Of a stretch of 64,000 nucleotides of DNA, positions 16,020-29,799 are shown one piece after another. The stretch is from Fragilariopsis cylindrus CCMP1102 (lineage: Eukaryota > Bacillariophyta > Bacillariophyceae > Bacillariales > Bacillariaceae). Each line of letters opens with the position of its first letter. Position 1 is the first letter of the stretch. Below the pieces are notes generated by a model that was not told the DNA's origin, ran no database searches, and saw only the letters and a program-made list of their open reading frames with translations. Position numbers and translations under genes: made by a program. The stretch covers positions 124,001 through 188,000 of the forward strand of contig FMBT01000346.1 in assembly GCA_900095095.1 (NCBI GenBank). Direction: 5' to 3'.

Positions 16020-18759
16020 TTAGTTGTCAAGTACCGTCGCGACGCACATATCATTCGCATCTATATCGTATGGCCCAAAAAATGTCATAATCCTGTAACT
16101 GATGACGATCATTGCAAATGAACCAACAACATCTTGAACAGCTGTTTCTAATGGTCCACCCCATTTACCCGAATCTCTTTCAAATATAAAAGTGAACAGT
16201 AATGGTGCTAAAGTTCCGGTAAAACCTGCCGTTAAGATACCAATAAATTGAGCAAAAAATATAGTCAATGCAAAAGCGAAGCTTTGGTGACCCATAACAA
16301 ACGCCATCGTACCAACAACAAGTCCCATGCCTACTCCAATATAAACAGCAGCTCCCATCTCTTTGAGCAACCAGGATTTAAAATTATCTTTCCTAACTTG
16401 ATGATGGCTGATAGCACGCGTTGTTAATGTACTTGCTTGTAATCCAACGTTACCAGAGATTGCACTAGTAATAGGAAGTAATGATATAAGTATCGTGTAT
16501 CGTCTGCGACCAATCAAGGCGCATAATTGATCACTTCCACCCGATATCATAAATAGAGTTGGAAGCTCAAAAATAAGAGTGACTATCAGCGCAAACGAAC
16601 GTTCTGGAAATGCACGTTGCAGTATCGAACTCCCCAGATACGCATCAGCGTCGTTTGATATGGATAGTAAGGTAGCAGCACTTTGGGATCGAATATCACT
16701 GAAAATACTATCGGCGAGTGATTCCAATCACCCATACTCCGAACAGACTGTAATGAATTCCATGATGATCCACGTATATGACTATGATTTTTCACAGAAA
16801 CAGCAGGTGGAATTCCTTCCAATAAAGGTTTTTGTTCGCCATCCACAATATTTCCATTTTTGCATCCTTTTGCTAAAGAATCATTAGTTGCAACGAAATT
16901 CATTTTACCTGTACGTCCTGAACCAAAACGTTGAGTCTCAACATCGTGATCTGTGCTTCCATAACCTTCAAATGCTGGTAAGAATGCGTCGGAAAGGGTG
17001 ATATTCTTTTCGGTTCTATCACCATCAGGTGAAAACCCAGGTGACCACAACTCAGTACGAGTTGTGATGCCCTTTAGATCATGAACGATAGAAGGTGAAC
17101 GAGGAGAAGAAGGTTCGTTCTTGTCAAAATCAAAACCATCGATATGATCATGTTCATTACAATTTGCGATTTGGTCCGAAGATTGAGTATCACGAAGATT
17201 TTTCATGTCATCATTACGTGGTTTGCTTTGTTTGTAATTAAACATACCAGGGCGCATCGTGCGATTAATAATAGTCTCATTCCCTTCCATTTTCATCTCA
17301 TTTTCAAAATCAGCTGAAGTATTACCAGCTGCAACAGTAGGGAGAATTTCGGTAGGGACTTGAGAATGTGGTGACATGATGCCACGGTCGTCGTCGTCTT
17401 CTTCATCATCATCATCGTCTCTAACTATATCACTGGGTGGATTTCCCGCCAAACTACCGTCACCACCACCAGCACTTGATGCAACAATATTCGAGGAGAA
17501 AGAATGTCCGTCAATGCCGCCATGACCGCCGGATGACGATGTGCTTAGTATCACGGTGACTGGGGTACCCTGGGACATATTCTGATTCTCTAATACGTGC
17601 GGCGTTAGACCACCAAAGTCGGATACAAGCTCTCCCAGTTCCGACATATCATCTCGTTCGGACGGAGGTGCATTGGAACGACTAGCATCATCGATGGCGG
17701 CCATTTCTTGTATCTCTGCCTCGGTCAATCCAAAGACAACACGCGGCTCCTGTGATGGACTTGGTAGGTCGATATTATTATGATCTGCTGATAATTCTAC
17801 TGCAAATCACCATCATTATTTGTCGTATTATTGTTGGAAGGTAAGTCTGATGGTATATTATCACCAGTGTTATTTTGGTGGTCTTTAGACGGCGAAGAGA
17901 TGGTTGATGATCCTCCTCCCCCTCCTGTTACAGTAGGGGGTTCTTGTAAAAATCGTTCCATAACGAAGTCTTGTTTTGTTTCATTCTTGCCAAGAAGAGT
18001 TTTACTACCGTCATCGCCATCACCCATCGTGGGTTGTTGTTGATCTTGCAAAAATCTTTCCATTGGATATGAAACTATATCATCGTCGAGTGTTTCGACA
18101 GGTGCTACTGTATCCTCCCCCACAGTTCCAGCCACGCTGGTTCCAGTCACACTGGTTCCAGCTTGAACCATTGAATTTATTCCATTCCGATCGTTCACAA
18201 ATGAATCGTGATCAGTGATTGCGCCGTCGGGAGAAATAGTGTCTCCAAAAATAATAGCTCCTGTCGAACCATTATTAATATTATTATTATTATTGTTATT
18301 ATTATTATTGTCCTCTTCGTCATATTCTGACTCTGCGTGTGCAGCCATGGCAAATTGCCTCTTCCATCGTGCTCTTTCCGATTCTACTCGTCGTTGACGT
18401 TCCCGCTCTACCAATTTCTCTTTCATTGTCGGTTCTTCCCGTCGAGGCGGAACAAGAGATGGTTGAAATTGCTCTTTGGCGCTCCCACTGGCTGTTCTTG
18501 TTCGGGCGTCATCATCTTCGTCATCGACTGTATGGGTATCTCCTCCGGTCACTGAGGAGGATACACGCTGTATGATATCGTCTGTTTCTACTTGCTTACT
18601 CCAGTTATCTTCGTCGTCGTCGTCGTCATCATCATCATCGTGGTTTCTGTCACCGTTGCTTAAAGCATGCTTGTCAAGAAAAGTTGAGGAACCTTCGATC
18701 CATCGTTCACCGCCGCTATCCTCGCTAATACCTGTCGAATCGGCTTTGGATTCACTCAT
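16020..18759 (-). CDS. MgtE-type Mg2+/divalent cation transporter with a long disordered N-terminus
   Basis: Reads from the Met at 18759 to a stop at 16020, about 910 aa, with two single-base frame breaks: near 17774 (T run in a GATTTG context) and near 16727 (GATTTG read as GATTG). The first 600 residues are low-complexity: Asp runs, ten Asn in a row, and two copies of a MERFLQ motif. The C-terminal 230 residues are the integral-membrane MgtE domain: helices LIVTLIFELPTLFMI, then the signature PITSAISGNVGLQASTLT, then TRAISHH and three more hydrophobic helices (GVGMGLVVGTMAFVMG, FFAQFIGILTAGFTG, DVVGSFAMIVISY). MgtE/SLC41 proteins conduct Mg2+ through the GNxGxQ loop. Only one such domain is present, as in bacterial MgtE rather than in animal SLC41. 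The regulatory CBS/N domains of bacterial MgtE are not recognisable. Confidence 0.75.
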
Positions 18760-18949
18760 CTTTCGTCACGATATAATAATGTTGTTTACTACTCGTCTTT
18801 CGTTACTGTAGACTAACTATTGCATCTACACTTAGCTCTAGGTTTTTGTAGTTGTACCGTAGTTGTAGAGTGTTTTCCATAAAATAATTTATTGTTATGT
18901 CTGAGTTTCTGAGAGAAAGATTGAAGATTGATGAGAGGGTAACCCAAGT

Positions 18950-19180
18950 GAGGTTGCCTCAAAGACGTTCGATTGAGTCAATTTGTGACTCAATTTTTTT
19001 TTGAGGCACGTGCAAAAAAATTGAGTTAAGTATCTGCCTGAATTTTTTTTACGGCAGCTCGCCTAAAAATAAAGGTAAGTAACTGCCTCAAAGTTGGCAG
19101 GTGCCTGAAATATTTTTGTGTGTACTTTTTACGCGATTAAAAACGAAAATAAAACGGCCGTGCCTCAATTTTTTTCTCGC
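18950..19180 (+). repeat. Left terminal and subterminal repeats of the 8.1-kb transposon
   Basis: The terminal 30 bases match 27028-26999 inverted without mismatch. Directly inside is a small palindrome (GATTGAGTC ... GACTCAATT) and then GAGGCACGTGCA, shared with the other end. Further in, variants of CTGCCTCAA or TTGAGGCA recur about every 25-40 bases to about 19180. Such subterminal arrays are usually transposase or accessory-protein binding sites. Confidence 0.8.
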
Positions 19181-19515
19181 CTCGCTCACAAAAAAGTGAA
19201 CTTATTCTTTTGAAATAAATTACAAAGCAATACATAACAGCCTCAACAACAACACATATACAAGTCTTGTCAAGAACGTTCCCATCTACTATCCGTTCCC
19301 ACAACAGCAATGGTGGATATTTTTGGCGGTTTAGACCGACACGACTCTTATTTTGCCATTGCCGGTGCAACGAATTCGGCGGGTCAAATTTTCAATCCAA
19401 AACAAAGTTCCAATTTGGGTTTCTTGTACTAATATAATCACTTGGGAGAACGTATTTTTGAATGATCAATACATCTCATAATTACTACTCAGAACAGCTA
19501 AAGTAAGTTTTCATC

Positions 19516-20827
19516 ATGCCGTGGAACAAACATTGCACAGCTGCTCTAGCCAAGCTTTGGGAGGATGGAACTGTATCTCCAAAGGCTTTAGCAACAGATG
19601 AAATCGACCCTGTATTTGATTTGTCTCCCGTATTTGTTGAAAACAAAATATCAATCTTAAGATTCCGTGCTCAATTTAGATCTAAAGCTGCCGATTACAT
19701 GAGATCACAAGCACTACAAGGCCGCCGTCGAGGTGAGTCGATAACTTCTTTCTACATCTAATAAATATTTTGCTTTCTTCCATTCTTCTTTCTACATCTA
19801 ATATTATTTTGCTTTCTTATTCGCAGCTGACATACCTTCGCCTATCCAAGATCCTGATTTTGATCCTGAAAGTGAAACTGAATCTCCAGCTAAAGCTCCA
19901 GCTAAAGCTCCAGCTAAAGCTTCTGCTGTTCATTTCAATAGCACACACACACCTCCTCGATCAACTTTCACTACCCGCACACCTACCCAAACACCAACCC
20001 GCACACCTCTCAGGACACCTACGAGGACACCTACCCATACAACAATGTCTTCAGAAAATAGTCTCTCCAAGCAGTTGGTTAATCTTGGTGAAAAACGACT
20101 CTTTTGTACATTCCAAACACCATCCGGTTTGGAGGGAGGAGAAGCTGTTATCAGTATCAATCAAGATGAAATTTATTGGGTCCAGACCTTCCGTATGTCA
20201 CAATATGGTGCACCTGCTGCAGTTCAAGTAACTATAGATCATACCGGTAATTCTGACAGGAACAACATTCTTTTTATTGCATTACAAGATGCAAAAGCGG
20301 AGGCTTACAATCGAATGCTTGAGCACGCAGAGATGGAAGGTGGTTATGATGATCCTGATATCATTTCTGTTAAGAAAGATGGTAGAGCTGTTGTTGTAAC
20401 TAAACACCTTTTTCATTTGCCATACAAAGTACAAAATCGTTTCTTTGATAATAATGAAAGGGAAGAGAAGCCTATGATTGATACCAACAAGAACACTGGA
20501 GATTGGGCATCCTTTTTTCTGGCCAAAGAGGATGAAAATGCATCCCCAGTTCGATCATCATTCCGGCGTCGTACACCTGCAAATAGTAGTAACAGTGGTT
20601 CTGGATCATCAAGACCACGTCCTAATGAACTAAGTGCAGCTCAACAGCAGCAGCAACGAGACCGTAACAGCAATGTCAATGTGAACAACAACATCAACAA
20701 CACTGGTGGTGGTGGCAACGCGAATGCTAATTCCCATCTCATCGACAACAAAGATGATGCTTCGATGGGTTCTGACAATGATCTCAGTGCATTTCATTCT
20801 CCAACTAATACTAATCTTGCTAAATGA
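19516..20827 (+). CDS. Transposon-borne protein of unknown function, possible accessory factor
   Basis: Exon 1 is 19516-19732, the intron 19733-19826 (GTGAGT donor, TTCGCAG acceptor) and exon 2 19827-20827; about 405 aa. The N-terminal 70 residues (MPWNKHCTAALAKLWEDG, then FRAQFRSKAADYM) form a compact Trp-containing helical module that could be a Myb/SANT-like DNA-binding domain. An Ala/Pro-Lys and Thr-Pro repeat linker (TPTQTPTRTPLRTPTRT) follows. The middle (RLFCTFQTPSG ... HLFHLPYKVQNRFFDNN) looks globular but is unknown to me, and the C-terminus is Gln/Asn-rich. It sits 0.5 kb inside the left end, where Harbinger elements often carry a second gene that works with the transposase; that role is inference. 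The ORF is intact, unlike the transposase. Confidence 0.7.
19745..19824 (+). repeat. Tandem duplication filling an intron
   Basis: Two imperfect copies of a unit of about 40 bases beginning cttctttctacatctaat and ending tttgctttctt lie side by side in the intron of the transposon gene. They make up most of the 94-base intron and provide two pyrimidine-rich tracts before the acceptor. Confidence 0.7.
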
Positions 20828-21127
20828 ATCAAGGGTGGTGAGGAGGCAATCAACATGCAACATGCAACAACAACAAGCAACAGCAACAGCGACAACTTAA
20901 ACGTATTAGAAGAATGATGTGTATGCATCATCTCATTCAGGATTAATAAAAACAATAATAGAATAACCTTTGTCATTCAAATAATTAGATAACTATTTAA
21001 TAGTAATACGTATTTCAGTTATAGGTAGTATAGGATATATTTTTCGCCATGGTGGTCGATATTAACTTGTTTGGTTTGCTTTTAAATTTTGAATGGATTT
21101 AAAAAATTGAAAAATTCGATGACATGT
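20828..21127. other. Gap inside the transposon
   Basis: 300 bases of AT-rich sequence between the accessory-like gene and the nested inverted-repeat unit. It includes a CAACAACAA/CAGCAACAG repeat just after the stop codon. No gene was recognised. Confidence 0.4.
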
Positions 21128-21286
21128 TAGCCTCATCAAAACAGCATCCTACGATCCTGCATATCAAACATACTAAAGTACATAAAGAAACCTTCTATTT
21201 ATACTACTATTTTGTACTAATACTACTGCTAAAGCTGTTCTTGAGGTACAGAAAATATGAAGAATAAAATCGATCTATTTCAGAGC
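21128..21286 (+). repeat. Left arm of the nested inverted repeat
   Basis: About 159 bases matching 24452-24293 in inverted orientation with scattered mismatches and small gaps. Shared blocks include CATCCTACGATCCT, ACATACTAAAGTACATAAAG and TACTGCTAAAGCTGTTCT. The similarity ends in GAGC on the inner side. Confidence 0.8.
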
Positions 21287-21293
21287 GATTTGC

Positions 21294-21763
21294 TTATACA
21301 TATATGATTCGAGTACAATAACTACAAGTACAATGGATGGTGGTGTGACAATGACGGCAATGGCAGCAATGAAGGCAATGATTAACTTGACATTCCAAAC
21401 TGCAATATGCAACTACTACCCAACATCTGGAACATTGACCTGTAGTACCTCTACATCACGTGCAACTTTGTTGCAGTTTTCACAAACAAACTGGACCATC
21501 ATCTGCTCATTCAGCATTGGGCACCTTCGGTTCTCGGCAACAGCAGCAATGTCAACTGGATACGTTTGAAGAACTATCTTCTGCTCATCATTGTTAGATC
21601 TGATATCATTGTCAACATAACCTCCCAATTCTTCATCTAACAGTACTGTCCGTTCTTCAAAATTTCGATCAGGCATGTCCCATAGTGCTCGGTCGTCGAG
21701 TAGGTGAAAAGTATTCTCCATCTCCTCCTCCATCTTTTTCTTTGCCAGCATTGCCTTCATCAT
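21294..21763 (-). pseudogene. MYND-type zinc-finger gene fragment, frameshifted
   Basis: From the Met at 21763 the frame reads a Met/Lys/Glu-rich helix, an acidic middle and the first finger half MVQFVCENCNKVARDVEVLQ. Two extra bases (GT) then shift the frame. The second half continues in another frame as QCSRC, then VAYCSLECQVNH, giving the usual C-x2-C spacing of MYND fingers, and degenerates into CLHCCHCRHC. MYND fingers bind Pro-rich peptides. It is a paralogue of the intact gene at 24483-25154, with which it shares the start region and about 30 bases of upstream sequence (cttgattgctttttaatttg). It has probably lost function. Confidence 0.65.
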
Positions 21764-22637
21764 CTTGATTGCTTTTTAATTTGAATTCAATTTATATTAT
21801 GACTACAACCAGTTCTTTTTTTAAAACAGATTACTCAAGGAAGGGCATGGGAAATTAGATCATTCCATTAACACAACCGCATCACAGGCCATTCCACTAG
21901 AATAGAAAATATTCCTGCTATTAAGATACTCTCAAAGCACCAAGGTACACTCCGATTTCATCAGTTCATTGTCTTCGACGTCAAACAATACATTCTTCCT
22001 TATCTTTCCTTGCTTTTTATGTGTTGAAGATTTATGTCTTGTTCATCGTCGAAACGACAAAAAATTACAACAACAACTCCAAAAATAATTCAAATTTTGT
22101 CTTCAAATCGAAGAATTTATCAAATTCCACGTAGAATTCTACAGACACGTGCAGTACTGAAACTGATTTCAGAGGGGGTAGTCCACAAAATTTGAAGAAA
22201 AAATAAAAAACTATAATAGATCTTATTGGAGCCTTAAAACAGCAATGTGTGACGTGTTGAAGAAGGGTTGACACGTGGTTACTATTAGATTCTAGCCTCA
22301 ACAACTTCAAGCTTAATCAAGCGTGATTCGACTACGATCCAAAGTTGTAAAAAAGTTGTTTTCTCACGATGATCACGATGTAAATTTTTAACACACAAAC
22401 AAAACACAAAAAGCATGAAACAAAACATGTTCATCGTGGGAAAACAAATTAATCCTCATTCCCGTTACCACTTCAAGTACAACAATGATCTGACTATGTG
22501 ATTTGGACTTTAAGTTGTACCTAGCTATGTGATTTGGAGGTTGTACCTAGCCAGTTAGTGGTTTTAGCGTACTATTCATTCATTCATTCATTTATTTCTA
22601 TTCATATCAGCTCATATCATATCATATCATATCAACG
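21764..22637. other. Gap inside the nested unit
   Basis: About 870 AT-rich bases between the divergent MYND fragment and LRR gene. It contains a short tandem duplication (ctatgtgatttgga at about 22494 and 22522) and an ATTC/ATATC microsatellite at 22575-22635 just before the LRR start. No ORF with domain character was found. Confidence 0.4.
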
Positions 22638-24145
22638 ATGGCGAATAATCCTCAACCACCTGCTGCTGCTGAGTTAGTAGTATTACATCATCCATATATG
22701 GAACTAAATCACCCAAGAAAGATACCAACCATCAAAAATACAACAAATGGAAGAGAGTGTATTATTAAAATTAATTGATCGTTCGAATGGAGATCCTTTC
22801 CATCCGGACCACAACAATGTTATGAAAAATCACAAACTAACACTATTATCAATCCTGCTGGTGATGGTGATGGTGATGGAAGAGTATTATTAGTCGACGG
22901 ATTACACATCTTAAAATTACTGATAATTCTTTTTATCGACGTCTTCAAGAAATATTAGCATTTCGTAATGCAGCTGCAGCAAATAGAAATATGCAAATAA
23001 TCGAAATAATCGCAATCATGATCATCATGAACAATTACAATTACCACCAAGAATTTTGGGTCCAAGACCAACATGGATAATGACAAAAGATATTGCTATT
23101 ATGGACCAATTGCAAGTAATTGAATTATATTGTTGTACTGGTCGGTTACCACAATCAATGAATCATTTGAATTGCTTAGTACGTCTTCAATTAGATGGTT
23201 GTCGTGTATTGATTTATCATTATTAGGATTAGGACTAGGTGGTAATACCAATAATAATAGGTTACAGAATTTGATGGAATTAAAGATTACTGATTGTGAA
23301 GATTTAACACCAATTAAATTTCGAAATTTATCCAATTTGAAACGTATATCATTAATGAGATGGGATAAGCAAATGCTAATACAATTGGTCTAGGGAAGCG
23401 TTGGATCGATGAATTATCATTAGCATCAGTTGTTCCAACAACCACAACAACAACATTTCAATTCCGTTTGTCATTACAGTGTTTAACATTTACTGGTTCG
23501 CGTTTAACAAATAAAGATTTATATAATATATTCAAAATGGGATCAGATGGTAAATTTCCTAATTTACATACACTTATCATAAATGATAATCCTGAAATTA
23601 ATTCCTTTAAGGACGTATTGCAGTTACCACCACCACCATCTTCATATAACTATGTTCCACCAGTGCCAACAACAATGGCAACGAATTTGAAAACAATCAA
23701 ATTATCAGGTACAAGTATTAAAGTTAATAATGAAGAATTAGATAGTGTAATAAAATTTTTGGAAAAACCAAATCCAACGGTGGTTATAATGAAAGTTTTT
23801 AGTTATGATTCATTACTTCCAATTGATCAAAGAGAAAAGATAAACAAGATTGAATATTTACTTTCAATGAATTCTATTGATGCATTTTCAATGACAGGTC
23901 GACCAGAAACAATCCCTCTTTCAGTTTTTCCACTGGCAATTTCTAAAGCATTCCGTAAATCGTATCGGACATGTAATCAAGATAGTGATATACGTGATGA
24001 AGATAATTTTAAATATGAAATACGACATGATATTGTTTATCATTTATTACGAAATGGACCAATCTTTGCAACTGGACAAACAGAAAGGTATAAACGTAAA
24101 CGTGCATATTATCCTCGTGTTGTCAAGAAACAGATTAAGTACTAA
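22638..24145 (+). pseudogene. Leucine-rich-repeat protein gene with broken 5' half
   Basis: The start (MANNPQPPAAAELVVLHHPY) is followed by at least four frame changes up to about 23460. The pieces still read as one protein: RLQEILAFRNAAAANRN, then RPTWIMTKDIAIMDQLQVIE, then LEELYCC-type LRRs (MNHLNCLVRLQLDGC; LQNLMELKITDCEDL; FRNLSNLKRISLMRWDK). The 3' half (23468-24145) is open: LQCLTFTGSRLTNKDLYNIF, FPNLHTLIINDNPEINSF, and a C-terminal domain FKYEIRHDIVYHLLRNGP. The arrangement resembles an expanded diatom LRR family with unknown role. As it lies inside a mobile unit, decay is more plausible here than elsewhere, but consensus error cannot be excluded. Confidence 0.6.
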
Positions 24146-24292
24146 GTGAAAAATGAAACGCACTGACCTGTTTTTCCAAGCATGGAGACATTACAAATAA
24201 TTGGGAATGATAATATTGTAACTTTCTTATAAGAAATCCCGGGAAGAGTTACTGTAATAGAAAAAAATGAAAAAAAATCGTATCATATATAA

Positions 24293-24452
24293 GCTCTAAA
24301 TTAGAACGATTTTATATTTCACATTTTCTGTACCTTTAGAACAGCTTTAGCAGTAGTTTTAGTACAAACTAGTAGTATAAATAGAAAATTTCTTTATGTA
24401 CTTTAGTATGTTTGATATGCTAGGATCGTAGGATGCTGTTTTGATGAGGCTA
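24293..24452 (-). repeat. Right arm of the nested inverted repeat
   Basis: Inverted counterpart of 21128-21286. It ends 30 bases before the stop of the intact MYND gene, which therefore lies outside the nested unit but inside the 8.1-kb element. Confidence 0.8.
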
Positions 24453-24482
24453 CGGGTATCATGTATGAAAAAAGTTTTTGTC

Positions 24483-25154
24483 CTAATATAATAATCCACG
24501 TCCTTCCTTTTTCATGATACGACAAACACGCTTATGCTTCTTCCAGTGAATAGCTTGACATTCCTTACTGCAGTATGCGGCGACCATGCAGTCCCCACAT
24601 TGCTTGAGCGGTTCCACACCTCGTGCACCTGTGTGGCAATATTCACAAGTGAACTGCATCTTCACTCTTCCGGATGCAATTTGTTTCATAAAAGATTTGT
24701 CTCCAGACTTGGTGAATGATGTCTTAGTCTTTAATGTACCATTTGCTTCTCTTTTCAAACCCTCTGCCCAAGGAATCATTTCATATCTACCATACTTATT
24801 AATAGTACCACAAGCAACTGGTGTAAATCCTGGGTCTGTCTCCCGGGCTTTCAATGTCATCGCATCTAGAGAAAGAGGTTCTTCTGTATGCCAAACATGG
24901 TGTTCATCCGCAGTTAAGATCCCATCAATGCGTTTCCCCTTCGCTTTCTCCTGCTCCATCAATTCCTCCAACACCTCATTTTTCTTCTCCATTACTTCCA
25001 AAGTCTCAATCATCTGCAAGATTAACTTCTTTTTCAACTCCATCGCCTGCTTCATCGCCTGCTCCATCACCTTCTTCAACTCCTCAATCTTTTTCTTTGC
25101 CACCATTGCCTGAAGACGCTCTCTTGCTACCTTTGCTTTATTATCGTTCACCAT
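24483..25154 (-). CDS. MYND-type zinc-finger protein
   Basis: Intact 223-aa frame from the Met at 25154. Residues 1-75 form a charged coiled coil (KKIEELKKVMEQAMKQAMEL). A middle domain (TDPGFTPVACGTINKYGRYE) is followed at about 170-215 by a MYND finger: C-E-Y-C, then CGDC, YCSKECQ and HWKKHKRVC, with all Cys/His ligands of the C-x2-C ... C-x2-C ... YC-x3-C ... H-x3-C pattern. MYND fingers are protein-interaction modules. The gene lies in the transposon between the nested unit and the transposase, on the same strand as the transposase. Whether it is captured cargo or part of the element cannot be told from one copy. Confidence 0.75.
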   Translation of the reverse strand: MVNDNKAKVARERLQAMVAKKKIEELKKVMEQAMKQAMELKKKLILQMIETLEVMEKKNEVLEELMEQEKAKGKRIDGILTADEHHVWHTEEPLSLDAMTLKARETDPGFTPVACGTINKYGRYEMIPWAEGLKREANGTLKTKTSFTKSGDKSFMKQIASGRVKMQFTCEYCHTGARGVEPLKQCGDCMVAAYCSKECQAIHWKKHKRVCRIMKKEGRGLLY

Positions 25155-25526
25155 CTTGATTGCTTTTTAATTTGAATTCAATTCCTATTATGACTACACC
25201 CATTATAACACCAAAACGACAATAAACCTGAAACAACCAGTTTTCTTGTATACCACTACATTTTGCGTGTAATCTCGTGTTCACTCAGGTTTTCATTTGT
25301 ACAAGATGGTCTATTAACAATCATAAAACGAGAAGCCACTCAAACAAACTACAGACAACAACAACAACAACAATACAAACCATGTGTTTCCATATTCATT
25401 TATTCGATTTCTTTAAAAAGAAAAACATTCTTGGTGATGACGATGGGTCAAAACATCATCCATGCCAGGTCTAATTCAACGACATATTCTTGAATATAGA
25501 TGATTGGTGCTGATGGTGCTGATGCT
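25155..25526. other. Gap between transposase remnant and MYND gene
   Basis: About 370 bases. The part next to the MYND start (aatttgaattcaatt ... tattatgactaca) is duplicated upstream of the MYND fragment at 21770-21815, so it is probably the promoter of both copies. There is an ACAACAACA repeat near 25360. No other gene. Confidence 0.45.
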
Positions 25527-26588
25527 TCATACAAATGGTTCATACCTAACTCCATTTCAAGCTGACATAAAACAAACAGCTGATATGACCAATATCTCAT
25601 GTTTGAGAACTTCTCTTCTGGTGTACCTTTTTAGTTTACATTGTTTCAAACTGTTGAATCGCTTAATTCGATTGAAACCACTTTCGAATCGCCCTTCAAT
25701 TCTTTTACACCATGTGTTTTATCTAAACTTCCAGCAATGCTCGAAGATCCTTGATGGAGAAACTTTATCTGGCGCATCTCCCTCTTAGGCTTTATCACTG
25801 ACAACACGTTCATTTGGACGCAAGTTTGTGGACTAATCCTTGACGAAAGATCAAGATATCATTCCAATCACCAGGCATCCATGGTCCTGATACATGAACA
25901 AAATCACTTGATAGTATTGATGTTGCAATTTCATACCGTAGAGAAGGTCCTTTCGGTGTGTGCAATGCCTTATTGAATGTCAATCTACCTGGCCTATTAA
26001 CATCAGGAATTCTAATCTGATGAAACGGAAAGTCGGAGCAGTCAACTGATGCCAAAGCATCATTCCGTATATCATTTGTTTTTGATTTTCCCAACGGATA
26101 ACTCTTTCTTTGAGGCTCCACATTGCATGCTGAAAAATCCAGATCCATTTTATCAAGGTATTCTCAGAAGGTTCCTTTTTATCACTTCTCATTTTCACGG
26201 AGGATCCCATGGCTGCAATTGTAGAATTCTCTTTCATAAAATTGAGAGCCCATAATAAATGTTTTGGTTTTGCTTTATCAGTCACTTTCTTGCCATCTAA
26301 TTTTTCACTTGTAATGCCTTCCTCATCGATTAGCTCCCATATTTTTGCTACAACAATTGGCATTGTTCCGAAACGGGCAATCATCCTCTTGTTCCGTGTA
26401 CTTTCACTCAGTTTTTTTGCATTCATCATATCAGTAGCTAATAGATCAAATGTAGCAGTAAGCGCTTCTGATGGCATAGAAAATCTCTTAACTCGTCTAA
26501 TGTCATCTTGGACACTAATATTTGCAAACTGACGGTTCATTGCATCCACTGTTGCGTCATACTCCTCGGTTGTTTCGTTGGGTTTCAT
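25527..26588 (-). pseudogene. Harbinger-type DDE transposase, inactivated
   Basis: From the Met at 26588 the frame reads an N-terminal helical region and the pre-catalytic segment HLLWALNFMKEN ... WENQK. A missing A in an A run near 26090 shifts the frame to ALASVDCSDFPFHQIR (first catalytic Asp), FNKALHTPKGPSLRYEI and GPWMPGDWNDILIFR (second Asp). After another break near 25817 the frame reads PNERVVSDKA, a TAA where Tyr is expected, then RIEGRFESGFNRIKRF (the Glu region) and a final HEILVISAV helix. Two or three nonsense codons and two shifts mean it cannot be translated intact. Motif order and spacing fit the DDE superfamily-4/Harbinger transposases common in diatoms (from memory). It sits 0.2 kb inside the right end. 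Confidence 0.75.
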
Positions 26589-26810
26589 TGTGTTGTTGTT
26601 GTTGTTGTTGTCGTCGTTGTTGTTGTGAGCACTTCTAAAACTGTTATTAGTAATAACAGTATCATTGTAAGAATATTTTAACGGTATGTAGTAACAAGTA
26701 TGTGTGTCAGTGATTTAAAAAGTGAACCTGGGAAAAGTGTGTCTCATGTACTTTTTGATTGGCTAATATGACATCAATTTTTGTAACGATAAAATTGGCA
26801 TATATATATT

Positions 26811-27028
26811 TGAGGCAGCTACTTAGCTCAATTTTTAAATTGAGGCACGGGCTTACCTGAATTTATTTTTAAGGCACCTCTTAAAAATATTGAGGCAGTT
26901 ACTTCCCTCAATCTTGACACGTGCCTGAATTTTTTTCTTAACGGATTCAAAACAAGAATTTGATGCACGTGCCTCAAATAAAAGTTGAGTCAAATAACGA
27001 CTCAATCGAACGTCTTTGAGGCAACCTC
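26811..27028 (-). repeat. Right terminal and subterminal repeats of the 8.1-kb transposon
   Basis: Inverted counterpart of 18950-19180. The outer 65 bases are closely similar to the left end, including the GACTCAA palindrome arm and GAGGCACGTGCA. Inside, the TGAGGCA / TGCCTCAA units repeat at least six times to about 26811, but spacing and flanks differ from the left end. Only the outer part is a true terminal inverted repeat. Confidence 0.8.
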
Positions 27029-27031
27029 AGT

Positions 27032-27940
27032 TCAAAAGTTCGCCTTTTAGCAGATGTTTTAAAAAAGCAAGATTGACAAGTAATTCGTGATCGCGCGCGA
27101 GTACTGTACGGTAGAATGGATATATTTCGTTATGTAGGTCCTACTGTATTACGGTATCTAAGCTACTGTATGTAGTTAGTCTTACATAATTATTAAGTCT
27201 ATCTGCCTAGGTCCTACGTAGCTAGTTACTACATGTAAATGGATTAATTTCCTGTCCAATGAATCTCTTCAATTTACTGGGTAGAATCAGAAGTGAGTGC
27301 CCCTAAGCTGTGGCTCCGCACTCAATGCAGTTGTTGTATTCTATTCTCTAGGAGTTTTTTTTTTGTATTCAAATGTGCGTGTACAACTATATTTCAGTAG
27401 CATCGTAATAGGAGACACTAATGCACCATTACTATGCTAATATTATCTACATTTTACTCGTATTATTTTCATTTTCCACACAACACACTAAATTTCCCCC
27501 TTTCCCTTGTATTTATATAGCTACATTTCGATTCCTCTGTTGATGTCGGGATTCTATCAGTAGAAGTGGAGATTAGATAGATGTTGGTTGTTTAACTTCC
27601 TATTGTCATGACAGTGTAAATAATGTTTCATCAAAAATATAAGTAATTTACAGATACTTTTCATAATAGCTACAGTACTGTAAAATAAAAGCACCAAACT
27701 TGTAGTCGACTACTTCGACTCGACTCACAGTTCGCGCCCAAATAATTATTTTCTCTCGTTGTTTCTTTTTTTTTAATGAATTTTGATTGCCTATGATGCC
27801 TGCTACTAGTATTACATATCGATTGACACGATCGAGAGAAACAACACAAGCAATAACAAAAGAAGAGAGAAGAGACCATTAGATCTAGATTCTACAAACT
27901 TGCCATCGTAAGCAAATAAGATATCAAACGAACAAGCAAA
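27032..27940. other. Intergenic region right of the transposon
   Basis: About 900 bases from the transposon end to the PARP-finger/HIRAN gene. It holds an AT-rich sequence with several TACGTA/CTACGTA-type short palindromic motifs (27100-27240). No coding exon or RNA gene was recognised. The last 150 bases presumably hold the promoter. Confidence 0.4.
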
Positions 27941-29799
27941 ATGGTCAGAATTGAATACTCTACCAATTCCCGTGCTAGGTGCCAATCATGTCATTCCAAT
28001 ATCGGCCAATCAACAATCCGTATAGCAATCAAAGCACTGTCACCGTATCAGAAAGGAGAATACATGACAAAATATCATCATGCAAGTTGCTACAATAATC
28101 GTAAAGATTTTACAAAATTGTATGGCTTTTGGGATCTAACAAAAGATGATAAAAAACAATTTATGAACGAAGAACAACGGAGAGAAAGCTTCCCCGAAGA
28201 TTATATGGAGGATGCTATTATTGCTGCTACTACTACGACTACGTGTAGTGCGACGCAAATAGAAAACATGACGACCGAATCGTCATTAAATCTAACAATT
28301 ACTGGTATCAAATACGGTGAAGTTTGTGCGTATGCTAATCAGAAAGTATCATTGGTTCGTGAGCCAGATAATGTAAGTTAATACGTATTTTGTCTTTGAC
28401 TATGATTTGTTCGTTCGTTTGTTTGTTTGTTTGTTTTTGTTTCTTGTGTAACTGACTTTATTTACATTCAATATATATATATATATCTTGCTCGTACGCC
28501 GCACCACTCATTATCCATGTATAGCAATACGACAGAAATGCCATCAAGGTTACCACTTTAGCTGGACAATTAATCGGTCGTATCAAAAAGGAACAGGCTG
28601 TTGGTCTATCATCCGAAACTGGCCGAGTTGGATTGTATTTGTACCGTGATTGATAATGGAGATGGATGGAATCAAAAGCTCAAGTGTGTGTTTGAGAAGA
28701 AGGAGGTGACGACCGCAGATATTCCTGCAATGGTGACGACTACGTATGAAAGTACTGCAAGTGCTGCTAGCGCGACCGCAAAATCCACAGGGAAGCGGAA
28801 GCAAGCTCCTTCTTTGGACGCCGATTCTATTAATGCCCCGCGTGCTAAGAAGAAAGTTACAGAAATTACACCGTCAAAGAAAATTCCGATCGATTTTGTC
28901 AATCCATACCTCAAGATCAATTCTACTACCAATGCAACAAGAGTCGATGATGTAACAATTGCTAAGAAAGTCCCGGAAGTTACACCATCAAAGAAACTTC
29001 CGACTGTTATTGCCAATCCATACCTCAAGATCAATTCTACTACCAATGCAACAAAAGTCGAGGATGTCGCAACTACCAAGAAAGTCCCGGAAATTACACC
29101 GTCCAAAAAACTTCCGACTGTTATCAATAATCCATACCTCAAGACCAATTCTACCAATGCAACAAAAGCCGGGGAGGTAACTGATAAGAGACCCCCGGAA
29201 CTATCAAAGAAACGTCCAATCGTTGTCAATCCATATCTCAAGGTATTAATTCTAACAGTTACCGGTATTAAATACGCTCAAGTATGTGCGTATGAAAATC
29301 AGAAGGTATTGCTGGTTCGTGAGCCAGAGAATGTAAGTTAAATGCGTAACTTTTTTACTTTTTACTATTGTTGTTGTTGGTATTATTACTTTAACTGACC
29401 TTATTTATATTCAAAATCACTTGCTCGCTGAACCACTTTTTCATACAAAAGATACATGACAAACACGCCATTAAGGTTCTCAATTCAGCTGGACAAAAGA
29501 TCGGTCACATCAAAAGGCAACAGGCTGTTAGTCTATCACCGAAACTGGCCAAGTTAGATGATAGTTTAATGATGACTGATTGTGTGCTAATCGATAATGG
29601 AGATGGATACAACCAAAAGCTCAGGTGTGTGTTTAAGAAAAAAGACACAAAGGTGTGTGACCAATCAACATCTTCTACACCTGCAAGTACTGCCATCATT
29701 AGTAGTGCGGCCGCCATTACGGCTAGGAAAATCCCAGAAGTTACTCCATCAAAGCCGATTATTACCAATCCATACCTCAATAAGGAGAGAAAAACTTGA
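27941..29799 (+). CDS. PARP-type zinc finger protein with two HIRAN domains
   Basis: Three exons: 27941-28372, 28525-29332 and 29452-29799, with GTAAGTTA donors at both introns. Residues 1-75 are a PARP-type finger (RCQSCHSNIG ... KYHHASCYNN; C-x2-C ... H-x2-C), which binds DNA breaks. Two HIRAN domains follow: LTITGIKYGEVCAYANQKV-REPDN joined to QYDRNAIKVTTLAGQLIGRI, and LTVTGIKYAQVCAYENQKV-REPEN joined to IHDKHAIKVLNSAGQKIGHI. Each is split by an intron after the REPxN codons, so the domain was duplicated with its intron. HIRAN domains in HLTF/Rad5 bind 3' DNA ends at stalled forks. The linker repeats a unit of about 35 aa (PSKKLPTVIANPYLKINS) four times. One extra T near 28607 breaks the frame after the first HIRAN. 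A role in damaged-DNA recognition is inferred. Confidence 0.75.
28830..29245 (+). repeat. Coding tandem repeat between the two HIRAN domains
   Basis: About four imperfect copies of a unit of about 105 bases encoding KxVPEVTPSKKLPTxI-xNPYLKxNSTT. A shorter trace (VTPSKPIITNPYLN) follows the second HIRAN. The unit includes a repeated Lys-rich patch that may serve as a DNA- or partner-binding linker. Confidence 0.75.

Follow-up and report, generated by a model that had tools for sequence, protein, structure and literature searches.

An 8-kb Harbinger-type transposon in Fragilariopsis cylindrus carries MYND and LRR sequences found beside several Harbinger lineages

Introduction

Where do the genes inside an 8-kb element bounded by inverted repeats come from, if its class is usually described with two genes of its own? 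The question is raised by a 64,000-nucleotide stretch of the genome of the diatom Fragilariopsis cylindrus CCMP1102 (GenBank assembly GCA_900095095.1, contig FMBT01000346.1, positions 124,001–188,000; the window), in which an original prediction, made from the sequence alone, had placed a Harbinger-type transposon with two MYND genes and an LRR gene as cargo. Typical Harbinger elements hold two open reading frames (ORFs; PMC9179366), and the part of PMC2806351 that gives an account of Harbinger elements in diatoms makes no mention of accessory genes. Using comparisons against the genome assembly (67.9 Mb, 818 contigs, with the contig of the window labelled C706), the element was found to be a genuine, recently mobile cut-and-paste transposon. 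The best explanation (probability of about 0.75) is a composite, now probably non-autonomous PIF/Harbinger-like (PHIS) DNA transposon with a Pangu-type target, in which accessory cassettes have been passed between Harbinger lineages. In the clearest pairs of loci, accessory DNA is 91–98% identical and the transposases are 26–50% alike; sequence comparison suggests that Harbinger transposons in this genome trade accessory genes among themselves.

Results

The element occupies window positions 18950–27028 (8,079 bp) and is flanked by identical AGT triplets, with the left copy of the target-site duplication at 18947–18949 and the right copy at 27029–27031. The terminal inverted repeats (TIRs), the left at 18950–19015 (+) pairing with the right at 26963–27028 (−), start with GAGG at the outer end and are identical over the outer 30 bases and at 59 of 66 bases overall, compared to a maximum of 32 of 66 among 20,000 pairs of window positions drawn at random. 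The ends and the AGT duplication were therefore located where the original prediction had put them, its DDE transposase remnant near one end was recovered on the minus strand (~25500–26588), and its reading of a single, mobile, multi-copy transposon of the Harbinger type with MYND and LRR sequences held.

With the left 100 bases as the query, a genome-wide search returned eight matches on four contigs, including both ends in the window, both ends on C411, one on C609, and a degenerate one on C514. More than one copy of the ends, on which the original prediction had staked its claim, is thus present. The right 392 bases revealed no additional end; two extra matches (C159 and C593) covered the inner 111 bases only. 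The C609 copy corresponds to window 18949–24442 with 98.35% identity (5,516 alignment columns with 33 mismatches and 35 gap openings) and has one end only, as the contig starts inside the element. On C411 there is a 1.34-kb internal-deletion derivative with both ends (99.5% and 99.7% identical) and AGT on each side, the joint of the deletion being marked by just a short imperfect match (ATTTCAA to ATTTTAA). Similarity ends at the terminal repeat for C609 and within two bases of it for C411 with the flanks unmatched, and each of the three insertions has different flanks. A dispersed repeat of ~255 bases adjoins the C411 copy (C411:428193–428450) and accounts for nearly all of the 50 matches in the flank search; no empty site was found for the C411 insertion with one flank searched, the matches being the locus itself and the dispersed repeat.

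The flank of the C609 copy has a 94–96% identical counterpart on C26 that starts 35 bases from the element. When those 35 bases were compared with the adjoining 120 bases of C26, similarity persisted in a weaker, gapped form (score, 36) that was equalled by one of 20,000 shuffles, with 126 other C26 pieces scoring ≤24. The first nine bases of this flank piece, AATGAAATT, have an ungapped match in C26 and begin at the target AAT, and no element sequence was detected in the C26 locus by BLAST beyond one chance 13-base match. On the basis of these alignments, C26 is a probable, though not proven, empty site, holding the AAT at which the element is inserted in C609 but not the element itself. The window locus also has a counterpart, on C611 (window 16963–18856 and 27042–29526; pieces 90–97% identical), and the assembly includes two such sets of diverged paired contigs (C706/C611 and C609/C26), with the transposon on one contig of each pair and not on the other. 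The movement of the element looks recent, because its copies are mutually closer (C609, 98.35%; C411, 99.5–99.7%) than the paired contigs around them (90–97%).

The targets at the three good insertions are AGT, AGT, and AAT, the last of these read on one side. The original prediction had looked for different 3-bp duplications among copies; the two that are legible on either side of a copy are both AGT, and the one-sided AAT, with its probable empty allele, bears out that expectation only in part. Target duplications of the form ANT define the Pangu group of PHIS transposons (PMC4482050), and AGT, AGT, and AAT fit this form, giving the element a Pangu-type target. PHIS traits present include TIRs, the 3-bp duplication (window and C411), and a transposase of the DDE_Tnp_4 type. 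The transposase remnant (25500–26588, −) retains one open piece (25980–26588), with the remainder in other frames with stops, and compared to the open 367-aa transposase of C383 it is 50% identical over 86 aa and 33% identical over 160 aa. PF13359 is borne by one of nine database homologues of the C383 transposase, and the C88 transposase exceeds the PF13359 cut-off; the pieces in the window have no transposase Pfam match. A fold search of the PDB with the C383 transposase model (mean pLDDT, 78) returned nothing at E 0.001 or better, with piggyBac and P element transposases as the top rows (E 0.09 and 0.29), and nothing was recovered by a PDB sequence search with the transposase alignment or by an Rfam scan of 18500–27500.

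Of the two MYND genes claimed for the element, the second (24483–25154, −; 223 aa) is intact and has a MYND finger (PF01753; 41.0 bits, cut-off 22.7), but the first (21416–21763, −) is broken and has no Pfam match, its start region being 93% identical to that of the second over 56 bases. All 13 database matches of the second MYND gene (83–100% identical, 211–243 aa) have a MYND domain. Searched against the genome, it has 48 matches, mostly to the finger alone; matches of ≥71% outside the window occur at four loci (C158, C383, C88, and C164), all of which have a Harbinger transposase within 2.3 kb. As C88 and C164 are near-identical (98.2% over 3.2 kb), these loci represent three independent cases of a MYND gene beside a transposase. 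The DNA of the second MYND gene is 95% identical to both C383 and C158 (580–598 bases), while the transposases of the window and C383 are 33–50% alike. Ratios of non-synonymous to synonymous substitution rates (dN/dS) for the MYND gene are 0.66 (window–C158), 0.30 (window–C383), and 0.36 (C158–C383). An expansion of MYND genes in F. cylindrus has been reported (PMC8991070); with only five loci of this MYND type, the element does not by itself explain it. At C88 (717079–718574) and C158, a ubiquitin-like domain (PF00240, 49–51 bits) precedes the Harbinger transposase, and at C158 the transposase match lies within a 589-aa open frame, consistent with a ubiquitin-like fusion.

The LRR gene (22591–24145, +) is broken in the window, where it is spread over several frames, and open at C43, C664, and C265. 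Genes of this type occur at C43, C664, C265, C570, the window, C609, C67, and C464, with a weak match at C420. A search of NCBIfam with the LRR protein returned a single LRR effector row far below threshold (16 bits, cut-off 500) and otherwise nothing, and a PDB sequence search returned one weak row, a NADase (E 0.0075). LRR sequence is present as predicted, but the reading is a weaker one, as the domain matches in C664 are sub-threshold and the window copy is broken.

Transposase and LRR gene are convergent across a spacer at C43, C664, C265, and C570, with C43 and C664 nearly identical to each other. For C265 and C570, the LRR gene and spacer are 97.8% identical over 1,831 bases, ending ≤6 bases from the last C570 transposase codon, while the transposases are 46% identical. 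This pair is the clearest sign of a cassette changing elements. The window LRR gene is 91–93% identical to that of C570, with transposases 26–31% alike. Between C43 and C265, both of them open, the LRR gene has a dN/dS of 1.21 (bootstrap, 0.75–2.20; 412 codons, 94 gapped columns) and zero stops compared to 4.2 expected under a neutral model (none in 26 of 2,000 simulations). Other pairs gave values of 1.16 (C664–C265) and 1.07 (C43–C664); windows in the N-terminal part exceed 1 on very few synonymous changes, and the full-length bootstrap ranges span 1. The C43 and C265 transposases have a dN/dS of 0.24 (0.14–0.43). An LRR ratio near or above 1, and not significantly above it, beside a strongly constrained transposase would fit, tentatively, a component of an arms race.

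Gene A (19516–20827, +) consists of two exons (19516–19732 and 19827–20827; the splice sites are our own reading), encodes 405 aa, and is intact. It is free of stops in both the window and C609, which differ by six synonymous and two non-synonymous changes. Two database proteins match over 64% of its length, at 100% and 64% identity, and the second is 70% identical in the exon-2 alignment. Gene A is likely the second transposition protein of the element. A second ORF with a Myb/SANT-like domain is a PHIS trait; gene A stands in that place and lacks a Pfam match. Neither the C570 nor the C383 element has a first gene similar to gene A, and equivalence was ruled out. In the genome search gene A itself was present only in the window and C609, with relics of its 3′ end at C279 and C447 that, along with their downstream flank, are 99.7% identical to each other. 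The 3′ flank of gene A (20872–21008, +) is also found ~30 bases from the 3′ end of the MYND gene in C383, C88, and C164, and in C158 for its last part only.

Between this flank and the second MYND gene lies an insertion of ~3.47 kb (21009–24477) that is absent from C383, C158, C88, and C164 and present in C609 at least to 24442. At C279 and C447, too, the relics of gene A are followed by 21009–21040, and the true left edge may be at 21040 or beyond. Near the left side of the insertion (21128–21286, −) is an inverted copy of a ~260-bp spacer from the transposase 3′ end of a second Harbinger group, and near the right side (24200–24459, +) is the spacer in the form found elsewhere 81–212 bp past the end of a transposase match. 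The spacer had 40 scored hits of 46 candidates genome-wide. Using a list of 30 transposase rows (from 33 matches, after extra pieces of C43 and C287 were dropped and two C706 pieces were merged), the spacer was located in one constant orientation, 81–212 bases past where the match stops, at 16 of 16 loci with ≥45% identity over ≥229 residues; by a rough estimate, the probability of this by chance at a single locus is 0.00015. Due to near-identical copies (the five-copy group C113/C80/C351/C640/C425, C43/C664, and C56/C678), the 16 loci represent about nine lineages at most. The transposase of the window is itself 1.3 kb from a spacer. Judged by sequence comparison, the block with the LRR gene and first MYND gene seems to have come in later, with inverted copies of the spacer of another Harbinger group on its two sides, and the element appears to be composite.

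A stub of a small gene, for which we use the name MCFYFPC type, is positioned at 25382–25474 (+), with longer relatives that adjoin a transposase in C383 and C90. The position adjacent to the spacer in C90, C56, and C678 is held by a different, unnamed gene with dN/dS values of 0.87 (C90–C56), 0.72 (C90–C678, part), and 0.25 (C56–C678, part). The idea that it is the LRR gene was dropped (E 0.44; no Pfam match for C90). Between the first genes of C90 and C570, substitutions are saturated and no dN/dS value resulted.

In total, gene A and the second MYND gene are intact in the window, and the first MYND gene, the LRR gene, the MCFYFPC gene, and the transposase are broken. The idea that the cargo spreads signalling genes was not upheld for the window copy, which cannot spread three such genes when only the second MYND of the three is intact. 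MYND and LRR sequences are indeed carried, but they look like accessory genes common to several Harbinger lineages in this genome, and not like host genes that this one element took up.

Discussion

The element is read as composite because the LRR/first-MYND block is apparently a later insertion bounded by the spacer of another Harbinger group. It would move by cut and paste into ANT targets, with gene A acting together with a transposase supplied from another locus. Its original core would have been a tail-to-tail pair, gene A and the transposase, on either side of a MYND gene; we infer this older order, as gene A was not found beside MYND in the related loci. The block with the first MYND gene and the LRR gene would have been added later by copying, at the junction of the gene A flank with the MYND gene. 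Cassettes would be exchanged passively, most simply during the repair of excision breaks with a related element as the template, and the C411 deletion derivative may be a by-product of such repair. The MYND gene stays intact, perhaps since it aids the element with host chromatin or expression, which is the weakest step; that it counters host control is a guess by analogy to TET/JBP and SET, accessory genes of other transposons (PMC12730594). A wider version, in which several Harbinger lineages share an accessory pool (the candidates being MYND, the LRR gene, the small MCFYFPC gene, and ubiquitin-like domains, with transposases 26–50% alike) that is swapped as cassettes at the conserved spacer by tail-to-tail genes, serves against host control, and includes an LRR gene engaged in an arms race, is tentative and, taken as a whole, doubtful.

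Several observations weigh against the composite reading or against individual parts of it. An intact transposase between these ends is absent from every locus read. The single end on C514 has changes at three of its outer 30 bases and is preceded by GGT, which is not ANT. The C26 comparison is one-sided, as C609 ends inside the element and its left flank is unassembled, and with a lenient aligner 100 element bases yielded gapped AT-rich matches across the C26 boundary (42.5, compared to 35.0 for the element alone). On C611, 93 bases of the left flank and 13 bases of the right flank are missing along with the element, which amounts to presence/absence and not a clean empty site; either a post-excision deletion or an independent indel would fit. 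Gene A was not found beside MYND at the four related loci (C383, C158, C88, and C164), it has no Pfam match with its exons scanned apart, and the model of exon 1 is all-helical and poor (pLDDT, 53). For the cassettes, MYND identity to C383 and C158 drops to 81–88% in the N-terminal part, the window LRR gene is ~86% identical to C43 and C664 over long pieces, and the LRR domain in the open relative C664 has the sub-threshold matches noted above. The spacer has no match near the short transposase fragments C463 and C52 or at 11 more distant loci, and only 22 of the 40 spacer hits are within 3 kb of a listed transposase, with 18 of 40 elsewhere. No target duplication of its own was seen at the edges of the insert, and the spacer fails to account for 18–25 bases at the right edge and for as many as 119 at the left.

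These last points bear on whether the inner block (21128–24452) is instead a non-autonomous transposon in its own right, with inverted ends of 160 bases, which became nested in the outer element by jumping into it. Such an element would account for the inverted arms that bound the block (31 bases at 100% and 128 bases at 91%), for its absence from four related loci, and for the multi-copy nature of the arm (40 scored hits of 46 candidates). However, at all 16 long matches elsewhere the arm lies inside an element, as a spacer next to the 3′ end of a transposase, and where copies are paired they are in direct orientation at C570 and C56 and, at C90, flank other genes as inverted copies. No target duplication is seen at the block edges, and homology among C43, C664, C265, and C570 continues beyond the would-be end and on to the transposase. 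Nesting is thus unlikely.

An alternative source for the cargo is capture, in which the ends of the element would have taken up ordinary host MYND and LRR genes, with the sharing among loci due to later gene conversion. Pack-TYPE transposons have no transposase of their own and hold fragments of host genes. MYND is a large family in this genome, with most of the 48 matches being finger-only, and the LRR gene at C67 has neither spacer nor transposase within 1.5 kb past its 3′ end, an observation that favours capture and runs counter to exchange. The element nevertheless holds the remnant of its own transposase and an intact gene A, all four of the close MYND relatives have a Harbinger transposase no more than 2.3 kb away, and the LRR gene adjoins a transposase at C43, C664, C265, and C570, making capture distinctly improbable. 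That the copies result from segmental duplication and assembled diverged haplotypes, and not from transposition, is very improbable: the assembly does include paired diverged contigs (C706/C611 and C609/C26) and the C609 copy is cut by a contig end, but similarity stops at the terminal repeat in C609 and within two bases of it in C411, the flanks differ, and C411 is a third location with both ends and the duplication. The preferred reading remains a composite transposon with cassettes passed between Harbinger lineages.

Compared to known systems, the element is closest in its target to the Pangu group (equated with Harbinger2 in the relevant part of PMC12730594), which shares ANT duplications, short inverted ends, and a DDE transposase with a second ORF (PMC4482050). 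That second ORF has no known motif according to the results section of PMC4482050, the discussion section mentioning Myb/SANT. Pangu elements, as described there, average ~3.5 kb compared to 8.1 kb here, where MYND, LRR, and small genes are additional, and they have TIRs of 11–40 bp that usually start with AG or GG; the element has an identical stretch of ~30 bp and GA as its first bases. Harbinger elements of Ectocarpus, also a stramenopile alga, likewise have two tail-to-tail genes and an ANT subset, but the account of them in PMC12477816 mentions no MYND or LRR accessory genes and places accessory genes in giant transposons of other superfamilies. Among transposons with accessory genes, the TET/JBP elements of fungi, which include Harbinger/PHISTA, provide a parallel in that an accessory gene family without ends of its own is passed passively between lineages (PMC12730594); they differ in the type of gene (here, MYND and LRR) and in the host, and here exchange is among Harbinger lineages within one genome. 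HarbingerS of Phytophthora, as named in PMC12730594, is a stramenopile Harbinger with a chromatin-type accessory gene, though this is a SET methyltransferase and not a MYND finger, and LRR goes unmentioned in that passage. No report of Harbinger elements carrying MYND or LRR genes was met in the open-access literature, a search that excluded subscription papers and Repbase.

The usual Harbinger element is described as having two genes; a diatom family that carries and trades accessory genes would extend the fungal TET/JBP case and, if true, would do so to another branch of life and to new types of gene. Natural pairs of elements with and without MYND or LRR would make the purpose of transposon accessory genes testable, and some genes annotated as MYND or LRR in diatoms may belong to transposons.

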